From the NCBI GenBank assembly GCA_003225175.1, contig QIBA01000038.1:1-64000 (forward strand): a stretch of 64,000 nucleotides of DNA, in the 5' to 3' direction. Made by a program: the position numbers and the translations under genes. The notes under the pieces were generated by a model. The model worked only from the letters and a program-made list of their open reading frames with translations, made no database searches and was not told the origin of the DNA. Source of the stretch: Acidobacteriota bacterium (GTDB lineage Bacteria; Acidobacteriota; Terriglobia; Terriglobales; Acidobacteriaceae). Positions 41,911 to 46,716 of this stretch are shown here, piece by piece. Numbering within the stretch: position 1 is the stretch's first letter; each line of letters starts with the position of its first letter.

Positions 41911-42040
41911 GGGACTTCGACTCCTGTCATTTAACTCACCGTACATCGTACATTCGTGTTACGCGGACGCAACTTTCACACCGGCGTAGCGTTTCACTCA
42001 CAAGTAGAGTTCAGCAGAGTTGAGCTCTTCGAGGAGAGAC

Positions 42041-42694
42041 ATGGGTAACTTTAGATTAGAAGCGGCGGCCACCAGCATCCTGGCCAGCCTGCTCGTATTC
42101 GGCAGTGCTGCAAGCGCACAATCTACAGGCACTTCAGCAACGACTCCCACCCCAGCTAATCAATCCGATATCAAGAGCGATCGTCGCGATCTGCGCCATG
42201 ACAAGCGCGATGTTCGCCAGGACCGCCGGGATATCGCAAACGACAAACAAGACATCCGCGGCGACCGCAAGGACGTGCGGCAAGACCAGAAGGACATCAA
42301 CCAGGACCGGCATGACCGCAATCAGGACGTTCGCGAACTGAATGCAGATCGCCGCGACCGCAACAAGGACGAAGGCCAGCTGGACAAGGCGCAAGCCAAG
42401 TACCGCAGGGACCTCAAGAGTGGCGACACGGACGATCTGGCGAAGGACAAGGCCAGAATCGCGAAGGATCGCGGCGAGCTCAAAGAAGACAACAAGGAGA
42501 TTGCCGGCGAGAAGCGCGACATTCGTCACGATCAGGCCGACATCAATCATGACAAGGCCGACATCCACAACGATCGCAAGGACTTGCGGAGCGACTACCG
42601 CGGCGTCCATCACGATCGCAAGGACGTCAAGGCGGACAAGAAGGACATCCGCCACGATCGCCGGGATCTGAGACGGGACAAGCGCGGCAAGTAG
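42041..42694 (+). CDS. Exported Asp/Arg-rich heptad-repeat protein
   Basis: A 217-residue protein with a signal peptide (about 1-27), a short Thr/Pro linker, and then almost nothing but charged heptads of the form Asp-(Ile/Leu/Val)-x-x-Asp-(Arg/Lys/Gln)-(Arg/Lys/Gln). Ten heptads run from residue 43 to 112. A looser helical stretch of charged residues follows, then eight more heptads at 160-215. One hydrophobic residue per seven with i to i+4 opposite charges suggests a stable single helix or a very long coiled coil. The RBS GAGGAGAG precedes ATG 42041, and a terminator follows. I do not recognise a family. Confidence 0.8.
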   Translation: MGNFRLEAAATSILASLLVFGSAASAQSTGTSATTPTPANQSDIKSDRRDLRHDKRDVRQDRRDIANDKQDIRGDRKDVRQDQKDINQDRHDRNQDVRELNADRRDRNKDEGQLDKAQAKYRRDLKSGDTDDLAKDKARIAKDRGELKEDNKEIAGEKRDIRHDQADINHDKADIHNDRKDLRSDYRGVHHDRKDVKADKKDIRHDRRDLRRDKRGK

Positions 42695-44225: not shown

Positions 44226-45383
44226 TCAATCCTCATCCAGCTTCTTCAACCGGCGGCTCTCCGCCAGTAGTCCCATGTTGTGACTTAGGTTCTGAAGTGT
44301 CACGATGCCGACCAGTTTCTGCTGATCGACTACCGGGATCATGGTCAATCCTCGAATTGTGATTTTGCGGAAGGCGGTCGCGAGCGATTCGCCTTTCTGG
44401 CACACCTCGAGTACGCGGTTCATTACCGACTGCACGTAGCCATTGCCTTCTGTCCGAATGGCGTCCAGGATCTTTTGTCGCGTAATGGTGCCGACCAGGT
44501 CACCGCTACGCACGACGGGGAAGTCGTCTTGCAGAGTATGCAGTGCTTTCTCGAGGGCATCCTGCAGGGTGTCTGCCGGAGAGAGCACGGCAAAGTCGGT
44601 GAGCATGATTTCTTCCATGCGCACGCTGGAGACAACCGACTGGAACAGCATGCTGCGGTCTTCCAGATGAGCCGCGATGAAGACGCAGAAGCCCACGACG
44701 ATGGCCCAGATGTTGCCCGCGAAGAAACCCATCACGGTGAGCAGCATTGAGAAGCCTTGTCCGTAGCTGACGGACTTGCGCGTCGCTTCCTCCCAGGCGT
44801 TGGGCACGTCCTTTGCTGAGCTTTGCGCCAGCCATACTCGCAGCACGCGGCCGGCAGCCAACGGATACGCAGGAACAAGGTTCAGCAATCCCAGCAAGAC
44901 ATTGATCCAGACCAGACTGCGTGCCAAGTGTCCGGAATGAATGTAAGGCGAGACAATCAGTTTCTGCTGTGCCACCGTAACCAGAATTGCAGCGGCCATG
45001 CCGGCAACCAGCAGGTTGGCAACCGGTCCGGCCAAAGCGCTTCGTGTTTCTTGTGCGACCGTGGTGTGCGAGGTGGCGCCGTGTTCGGAGGTTTCGCCCA
45101 GCACAACGCCGCCGATGGGCAGCAAGACCAGACGCTGCAATCGATCACGCTTGCCATGCCTGAAGAGCGCGCGTGCCGTCTCCTGCACTACGACCGCCGC
45201 CAGCATCATGAAAAACAACGCCACGCCCCGAACCGGGTCCATTCCTGCCTGCTTCGTCTGTGTGACCAGCAGAGCCAGCAGCAGGAAAAACGTGAGATGC
45301 AGACGCACCTCTGTGCCAAAGAACCTGCCGACCGGAATGGACCAAGCGCGAATCAATGATTTGAAAAGTATCCTCTGAGGCAA
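44226..45383 (-). CDS. Site-2-protease-like membrane protein with CBS pair, zinc ligands missing
   Basis: A 385-residue protein with about five or six transmembrane segments in the first ~235 residues and two CBS domains after (about 255-310 and 320-375). It aligns with class III S2P (M50) proteases in layout. However, the zinc motif HExxH is replaced by Gln-Glu-Thr-Ala-Arg near residue 68, and the second motif NxxPxxPLDGGR reads Asn-Leu-Val-Pro-Ala-Tyr-Pro-Leu-Ala-Ala-Gly-Arg near 170, losing the Asp. It should therefore be proteolytically inactive. The start is TTG 45383, as no in-frame ATG fits. It is divergent from rsmD. It could be an adenosine-ligand-sensing membrane regulator (inference). 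Confidence 0.85.
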   Translation of the reverse strand: MPQRILFKSLIRAWSIPVGRFFGTEVRLHLTFFLLLALLVTQTKQAGMDPVRGVALFFMMLAAVVVQETARALFRHGKRDRLQRLVLLPIGGVVLGETSEHGATSHTTVAQETRSALAGPVANLLVAGMAAAILVTVAQQKLIVSPYIHSGHLARSLVWINVLLGLLNLVPAYPLAAGRVLRVWLAQSSAKDVPNAWEEATRKSVSYGQGFSMLLTVMGFFAGNIWAIVVGFCVFIAAHLEDRSMLFQSVVSSVRMEEIMLTDFAVLSPADTLQDALEKALHTLQDDFPVVRSGDLVGTITRQKILDAIRTEGNGYVQSVMNRVLEVCQKGESLATAFRKITIRGLTMIPVVDQQKLVGIVTLQNLSHNMGLLAESRRLKKLDED

Positions 45384-45430: not shown

Positions 45431-45985
45431 ATGCGTGTCATAGCCGGGCAGTATCGCAGCCGCAGATTAATGGCACCTCCAGGCACAGATACCCGTCCGA
45501 CCTCGGACCGGCTGCGCGAAACGCTGTTCAATGTCCTCTCAGCTGGAATCCCCGAGAGCGTCTGGTTCGACCTCTTTGCCGGCTCTGGCGCTGTCGGAAT
45601 CGAAGCCTTAAGCCGCGGCGCACGCATGGTGTACTTCGTCGAGAGCGCTGCAAGGGCCGCCCAAACAATCCGTGCGAACCTTCGCAATCTGTCGATCACC
45701 GAAGGATTTGAAGTGCAGGAGCGAGAGGCGTTTCAAGCGTTGCGTGCGCTCGACGCTGCCGCGGTCGTCTGCGATTTCTGCTTTATCGATCCTCCTTATG
45801 CCGAAGAAGCAGCTTACGAGCAGAGCCTGGGCTTCCTGTCTCAATCGAGGCTGCTGACGCAGAAGAGCATCGTGATCGCAGAGCATGACAAGCACTCCGA
45901 TCTCGCGGAGCGCTATGGAGCATTGCAAAGATTTAGGCGATTGCAGCAGGGAGATGCGGTGCTGAGCTTTTACAGGCTGGGATAG
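45431..45985 (+). CDS. rsmD: 16S rRNA (guanine966-N2)-methyltransferase
   Basis: A 184-residue SAM-dependent methyltransferase. The N-terminal Arg-Val-Ile-Ala-Gly start, Arg-Pro-Thr-Ser-Asp-Arg-Leu-Arg-Glu near residue 24, SAM loop Asp-Leu-Phe-Ala-Gly-Ser-Gly-Ala-Val-Gly near 47-56 and catalytic Asp-Pro-Pro-Tyr near 120 are the RsmD signature. The ATG at 45431 fits the family start exactly. It runs divergently from the S2P-like gene, with only 47 bases between the two starts. Confidence 0.94.
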   Translation: MRVIAGQYRSRRLMAPPGTDTRPTSDRLRETLFNVLSAGIPESVWFDLFAGSGAVGIEALSRGARMVYFVESAARAAQTIRANLRNLSITEGFEVQEREAFQALRALDAAAVVCDFCFIDPPYAEEAAYEQSLGFLSQSRLLTQKSIVIAEHDKHSDLAERYGALQRFRRLQQGDAVLSFYRLG

Positions 45986-46134: not shown

Positions 46135-46716
46135 CTACATGAACAATTCGCGCGTCGTGTTTGCGATCGGATGCTGCATTACGTCGAGCTCGTTTTTCAC
46201 CATATTGAGCCCGCAGACGCAATCTTCGAAGCGCTCGGCGAGTTTGCCGAATAGCGGCGCAGCCCCGGCGTATTCGTAAAGATCAAACTTGGAGACAATG
46301 TAGTAGCTCTCTTTGCCTGCCTTAATGAAGTCAATCAGGCTGTCGAGGCGCTGACGGCGCAGTCGCGTCGAGTTCAGGCTGTCGGGAAACATGCCGGCAA
46401 AGAATAGGGTGTAGTCGCCGATGTGTTTGCGAATTTCGCGCTCACGGTCAAAGGAAGGAGCAGAGCCAAAAATGGGATCTGACTCGAGGAGCATCTCGCC
46501 AACGTCCGCCAGCGGACGTCCGGCAGCATTGCGGATTTTGTACAGCTCCTCAGACTGGCAGAAATTTGCCAGCATCTCTGAGATGTAGTGGGTTAAGCCG
46601 GCATCTCGAAGTCCGATCGTCGAGGCAAACGTCTCGGTGATCAGACCGCCAAAGAAGTCCTGCAACAGCTTCGATCCTGAGTTCACCTGCACTCCTCCCC
46701 ACGATCCGCTGCTCAC
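46135..46716 (-). CDS. Conserved-looking hypothetical protein
   Basis: A 193-residue soluble protein, largely helical and without a signal peptide or membrane segment. It contains an Asp-Arg-Glu-Arg-Glu cluster near residue 90, a Gly-Asp-Tyr-Thr-Leu-Phe-Phe segment near 100, and a C-terminal half rich in Leu/Ile/Tyr/Phe. The 214-base gap to ridA includes nothing notable. I do not recognise the domain. Coding is supported by length, codon pattern and a clean end. The function is unknown. Confidence 0.7.
   Translation of the reverse strand: MSSGSWGGVQVNSGSKLLQDFFGGLITETFASTIGLRDAGLTHYISEMLANFCQSEELYKIRNAAGRPLADVGEMLLESDPIFGSAPSFDREREIRKHIGDYTLFFAGMFPDSLNSTRLRRQRLDSLIDFIKAGKESYYIVSKFDLYEYAGAAPLFGKLAERFEDCVCGLNMVKNELDVMQHPIANTTRELFM

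Follow-up and report, generated by a model that had tools for sequence, protein, structure and literature searches.

Results

An S2P-CBS gene whose zinc-site motifs are altered

ORF analysis of the window (the whole 64,000-nt stretch of DNA analysed) places an S2P/M50-CBS gene on the minus strand, running from 45383 to 44226, with 385 codons and a TTG start. Translation may well begin instead at a further in-frame TTG, at 45356, which is closer to where the alignable sequence of the orthologues begins, and the choice between 45383 and 45356 is uncertain. The features of the locus are as follows.

44226..45383, minus strand: S2P/M50-CBS gene of up to 385 codons, very probably encoding a pseudoprotease (ORF, Pfam; alternative TTG at 45356)
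44625..45344, minus strand: S2P membrane core, residues 14-253 (phmmer to 3b4r; AF2 block pLDDT; Z 23.6)
45171..45185, minus strand: former zinc/catalytic HExxH motif, now Q67-E68-T-A-R71 (alignment, congeners, codon table)
45099..45134, minus strand: putative membrane re-entrant β-hairpin, residues 84-95, LVLLPIGGVVLG (two model strands; Pro89; SpoIVFB analogy)
44847..44864, minus strand: former third-ligand motif P-[LM]-D-G-G-R, now PLAAGR, with Asp176 changed to Ala at codon 44856-44858 (alignment, congeners, codons)
44271..44615, minus strand: CBS pair, residues 257-371, the most conserved portion (Pfam, alignment, dN/dS)
45431..45985, plus strand: rsmD-like methyltransferase (PF03602), a divergent neighbor that marks the locus through the family (neighbor survey, Pfam)

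In a Pfam scan the window protein matched Peptidase_M50 with 49.6 bits, above the cut-off of 27.2, and CBS in two stretches. In phmmer searches, residues 14-255 align with mjS2P (MJ0392 of Methanocaldococcus jannaschii, 3b4r) at E 1.3e-15, in agreement with the S2P core layout and motif spacing that the initial annotation had described, and residues 258-368 match the CBS pair of 5g5r, a chain of another, archaeal S2P. An AF2 model built from 18 sequences has a mean pLDDT of 64.0. Its block means are 51-92 for residues 11-250; values fall below 50 in residues 249-325 and 331-385, which make up most of the CBS half. Its top structural match is again 3b4r (Foldseek E 7e-12; Z 23.6, rmsd 2.9, 212 aligned residues), followed by SpoIVFB at Z 11.5. 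Both the sequence profile and the predicted membrane fold thus assign the protein to the M50/S2P family. Residues 84-95 are modelled as two strands and, by analogy, may form a substrate clamp like that of SpoIVFB.

The phmmer alignment confirms the reported loss of both His and the Asp: HELGH of mjS2P faces QETAR (67-71) and PMDGGR faces PLAAGR (174-179), so that His67 is replaced by Gln, His71 by Arg and Asp176 by Ala, while the catalytic Glu68 is kept. The window protein therefore has neither the HExxH nor the third zinc ligand Asp of an active S2P. The initial annotation had allowed for a true HExxH shifted elsewhere, but a scan of the whole protein found none, and no replacement set of His, Asp or Glu occurs among 38 tabulated core positions. 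An M50 profile search of the same genome picked up three further genes of the family, and each of them has HExxH (HEFGH together with PDZ domains, HEMGH and HESAH); a search with the window protein found no second S2P-CBS there.

Zinc ligands are missing throughout the genus

The gene is present in all six sampled genomes of the window genus (g1), its own included. Arg71 and Ala176 occur in 6/6, and position 67 is Gln in three and His in three; two of the three ligands are thus lost in all six rows and all three in half of them. Such genus-wide replacement argues against both chance and sequencing error, and the His67 kept by three congeners indicates that the zinc site of the genus is partly preserved. 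Among the six genomes Arg71 is encoded by CGC, CGA, AGA and CGG and Ala176 by GCG, GCT and GCC; because these codons vary silently, the replacements appear to be maintained as amino acids. The loss is thus that of a conserved clade, as had been anticipated, and a congener with an intact triad, which would have pointed the other way, is absent from the six genomes.

One genome (G004), whose assembly is fragmented, carries a second, partial QETAR copy that is 88% identical to the window protein.

Intact and disabled forms occupy chiefly one locus

Matches at E 1e-30 or better were found in 283 of 300 genomes drawn from the taxonomic family. We aligned 207 homologue rows, 108 of which (the window protein among them) lack HExxH, and set aside three outgroup, six partial and 11 distant rows, the last including second copies in family genomes. 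In the remaining 187 full-length rows, His is present at both positions in 82, all of which also have Asp176, and at least one zinc ligand is missing in 105, a proportion that does not measure prevalence because similarity to three queries guided part of the choice of rows, and rows were not taken from every genome. One row, L127, is counted in this tally and left out of the selection, residue, synteny and codon/length tables.

The 105 disabled rows comprise six from g1, 90 RExxR-type rows with Asp176, seven from genus g80, one HELVQ and one HQLML. Three RExxH rows, one RExxK row and a separate row, L238, are included in the 90. Most disabled rows form a RExxR clade that spans 22 genera, with a 23rd (g95) added by a partial row. 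Sorted by coded genus, many of which are represented by a single row, 25 of 68 are disabled-only (22 RExxR genera, g1, g5 and g6), 42 are intact-only and one (g67) is mixed. Asp176 is present in 89/89 RExxR-type rows outside g80 (90 with L127), in 0/6 g1 rows and in 0/7 g80 rows. Glu68 is kept in 104/105 disabled rows, HQLML being the exception. Over all 187 full-length rows, Pro89 of the hairpin is invariant (187/187), and Gly119 and Trp159 are found in 184 and 186, respectively.

An rsmD gene lies divergent to the S2P gene in 76/82 intact, 89/89 RExxR-type, 5/6 g1 and 7/7 g80 rows; at the sixth g1 locus there is no room for it, and the six intact rows without it are three with room and three without. 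Since rsmD is divergent in nearly all rows, the intact and disabled forms are, in the main, one orthologous locus.

Several rows depart from these patterns. In g80 (L222-L228) RExxR is accompanied by complete replacement of the PLDGGR motif (e.g. by ALPTTQ), and the hairpin and CBS blocks remain. L023 (genome G009, HELVQ) and L060 (genome G010, HQLML) are singletons with separate zinc-site losses, and L060 also lacks the catalytic Glu. In L057 and L059 the orthologue's open frame spans only part of the match, by error or as a pseudogene; the L059 motif is of the HELGH type, and the piece of L057 that was aligned does not include its motif.

Zinc was lost repeatedly

On a gene tree of 87 rows, computed with the zinc columns removed, at least four changes between intact and disabled states are needed, for g1 together with the RExxR clade, L238, L023 and L060. 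L238 (genome G195, genus g67; RELGR/PLDMGR) has L187 (HELGH) as its sister; the two are 79% identical, and the grouping has an SH-aLRT of 100. The position of a RELGR protein beside an intact one argues that RExxR arose at least twice and makes L238/L187 a good pair for asking when and why zinc is dropped. A single-base change (CAC/CAT to CGC/CGT) can turn a His codon into an Arg codon, so mutation offers an easy route to convergence, although this does not explain retention.

The trees differ as to whether a single loss or two underlie g1 and the RExxR clade. The S2P tree groups them with support of 97/87; a tree of rpoB and rpoC groups g1 with a HEIGH-keeping genus at 92/91, and by AU tests either placement is acceptable in both data sets (p = 0.138 for S2P, 0.221 for rpoBC). 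Long stems lead to both groups (0.59-0.62 for g1, 0.76-0.81 for the RExxR clade), and these could attract each other in the S2P tree.

The gene is under purifying selection

NG86 dN/dS values for the window gene against five congeners are 0.057, 0.058, 0.051, 0.100 and 0.089, ratios that are rough at a dS of 0.93 to 3.3 yet far from neutral. Control genes gave 0.059-0.097 (rsmD, four pairs) and 0.093-0.107 (alr, three pairs). In the two pairs with dS under 1.2, dN/dS over the TM core, a measure that the initial annotation had proposed, is low, at 0.075 in both, and that of the CBS pair is 0.019 and 0.007. Conservation within the protein is strongest in the CBS pair, which has the lowest dN/dS and long invariant runs in the alignment. 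Thus, the S2P-CBS gene is under purifying selection.

The same comparison was made for the wider family. Among the 12 lowest-dS RExxR pairs, ten have dN/dS of 0.03-0.14 and two, with high dN, 0.3-0.7; among the 12 lowest-dS intact pairs the corresponding numbers are eight at 0.02-0.16 (0.160 being counted as close) and four at 0.3-0.7. The close pairs of the two kinds overlap. Aligned length is 360-378 residues in 101/101 g1, RExxR and g80 rows, with none below 330. We discarded a comparison of NG86 medians that would have implied weaker constraint on RExxR members (0.422 over 1681 pairs vs 0.312 over 504 intact pairs), as dS is saturated and the medians are unreliable.

The CBS pair lacks the ribose-binding Asp

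The Asp of the S/T-x-x-D motif of CBS domains holds the ribose of an adenine nucleotide. In the window protein its position is taken by Lys304 in CBS1 and Asn365 in CBS2, and Asp is absent from both positions in 187/187 full-length rows, intact and disabled alike (Asn365 in 170). In 5g5r an Asp faces Asn365 and another, preceded by T-L-H, faces Lys304. Five RExxR rows do carry an Asp at 303, the residue before Lys304. The proposed response to adenine nucleotides through the CBS pair is therefore not supported, and ATP/AMP sensing is not the default reading of these sequences. ATP binding in vitro is reported for the CBS domain of SpoIVFB in passages of PMC6242693, so the nucleotide might still bind in the absence of the ribose Asp; another ligand, or a pure protein surface, would be as likely.

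Discussion

A probable conserved S2P pseudoprotease

With its zinc ligands gone, the window protein should be unable to cut by the S2P mechanism. The loss is clade-wide, the frame intact, dN/dS low and an S2P fold predicted. These findings support the initial view that the gene has not decayed but encodes a conserved pseudoprotease, and we regard it as very probable. The protein may work in an iRhom-like way, as suggested; by ancestry and fold it is an S2P and not a member of the iRhom family.

Among characterized proteins, mjS2P is like ours in fold, core layout and motif spacing and, in the sections of PMC11486902 that describe the full-length protein, in its tandem CBS domains; it keeps HELGH and the Asp of MDGGR, whereas ours has QETAR and PLAAGR. 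SpoIVFB of Bacillus subtilis (8vjl, 8vjm) shares with ours a membrane S2P core, a re-entrant hairpin and a C-terminal CBS domain (PMC11486902), but is an active protease with zinc ligands, whereas ours has a CBS pair and no ligands. EGY3 of plant chloroplasts is an S2P homologue without HExxH, conserved in its lineage and, according to passages of PMC10978774 and PMC9355673, non-proteolytic in role, stabilizing other proteins. By description rather than by sequence, it resembles ours in lacking HExxH, in being conserved within a lineage and probably in having a non-proteolytic role; EGY3 is a plant thylakoid protein, whereas ours is bacterial. iRhom, Derlin and YqgP, the last as described in parts of PMC7231995, embody the same idea, a membrane protease fold that binds clients without cutting them, but belong to the rhomboid family, whereas ours is an S2P by fold and ancestry.

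Protease databases list inactive homologues. A statement in a 2022 paper has plant EGY3 as the only S2P pseudoenzyme, and among the literature matches listed, which mostly do not cover subscription papers, no bacterial S2P pseudoprotease is named in titles or abstract openings.

A possible client-binding role

The protein retains the CBS pair and the catalytic Glu, together with the predicted S2P membrane fold and the putative clamp hairpin. Two precedents suggest how these might be used. In the structural account of SpoIVFB (PMC11486902), the substrate adds a β-strand to the re-entrant hairpin, and the protease engages pro-σK although the purified substrate complex is zinc-free, so that substrate engagement needs no metal. 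For the bacterial rhomboid YqgP, parts of PMC7231995 describe a presentation of MgtE to FtsH that does not depend on YqgP's protease activity.

From SpoIVFB and YqgP we infer, tentatively and with somewhat less than even confidence, that the window protein is a client-binding adaptor or holder. The binding of membrane clients is suggested by the conserved substrate-clamp residues; against the adaptor role, it is modelled on rhomboids, which have an unrelated fold. Single-pass or unfolded TM segments would be bound in the old active-site groove via β-strand addition to the hairpin, and the bound clients would be either shielded from a real protease or handed on to one (FtsH, RseP). The CBS pair and linker could serve as a cytoplasmic docking or control surface. 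At the former zinc position of RExxR members, buried salt bridges probably tie the two Arg to the Glu and the Asp in one cluster; g1, with HExxR or QExxR and no Asp, would represent a different solution to the same missing-zinc problem. Taken whole, an S2P pseudoenzyme that works by client binding is the explanation we moderately favor. Points that weigh against it are the His67 kept by three congeners, the rough dN/dS ratios, the low pLDDT of most of the CBS half and the lack of a neighbor that tracks the loss.

A broader proposal is that this old S2P-CBS locus has, across a whole bacterial family, an essential task other than, or in addition to, proteolysis. Its products would bind clients even in their intact state, so that zinc could be dropped repeatedly (at least four times, RExxR arising twice) with Glu, clamp and CBS fixed, and a buried Arg-Glu-Arg-Asp cluster would replace zinc in RExxR members. 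If this is true, no S2P pseudoprotease would have been described in bacteria before these, which would be the bacterial counterpart of the iRhom/Derlin logic on another fold. We offer this as a possibility that is more doubtful than the pseudoenzyme reading itself.

Alternative explanations

The TM half might instead be a mere anchor or spacer, and the conserved job would fall to the CBS pair, acting in the cytoplasm as a sensor or scaffold whose ligand is not a canonical adenine nucleotide. The stronger conservation of the CBS pair (dN/dS 0.019 and 0.007, long invariant runs) fits this, as do the g80 proteins, in which the CBS blocks persist without the PLDGGR motif. Yet the TM core itself is constrained at 0.075, and retention of Glu68, Pro89, Gly119, Pro120 and Trp159, with Asp176 in RExxR members, goes beyond the needs of an anchor. 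We therefore consider an anchor-only TM half unlikely, though it is the best of the alternatives.

Decay, in which a protein that no longer cuts is on its way to disappearing, would account for the four or more losses of zinc ligands on the gene tree, for the long stems (0.59-0.62 in g1, 0.76-0.81 in RExxR) and for the incomplete frames of L057 and L059, even if L059 belongs to the HELGH type and the L057 motif lies outside the aligned piece. It is strongly disfavored by dN/dS of 0.05-0.10, similar to that of rsmD and alr, by intact frames with aligned lengths of 360-378 residues in 101/101 g1, RExxR and g80 rows, by the many genera affected, which make the loss old, and by Arg and Ala replacements that were held through silent codon change. 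Continued proteolysis, at an unusual metal site or by a mechanism that needs no metal, is highly improbable: Glu68 in 104/105 rows without the full triad and the one His kept by 3/6 congeners are in its favor, but every g1 row has lost two ligands (three rows all three), Arg at both His positions of most RExxR rows would repel a cation, and the 38 tabulated core positions offer no replacement ligand set.

The pseudoprotease reading thus leaves one mostly syntenic bacterial locus at which 105/187 rows, in a sample that carries no prevalence, lack the zinc triad beside close intact relatives. This natural experiment bears on the roles of S2Ps besides cutting, on the contribution of the CBS pair and on the origin of intramembrane pseudoproteases. 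It also carries a warning for annotation, as an M50 match in the Acidobacteriaceae often need not signify a protease.

Other features of the neighborhood

Neighbor clustering over 175 loci found no partner gene that tracks zinc loss. Apart from the S2P gene and ORFs overlapping it, each cluster is present in only some loci; rsmD, counted separately, is the only near-constant neighbor and is common to intact forms too. A promoter/terminator scan gave results at chance level. alr adjoins the window gene and was seen in 3/5 congener loci, the other two of which may be too short to include it. Two neighbors at RExxR loci and the window ORF 46135-46716 have no Pfam match at E 0.001. This ORF (minus strand, 193 aa) belongs to a cluster present in 46/175 loci, 41 of them intact and five from the genus set, and in no RExxR locus among the 175, whose flank lengths differ. 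The window ORF 42020-42694 (plus strand) consists of repeated charged units and has an 85%-identical relative near the S2P gene in L040.
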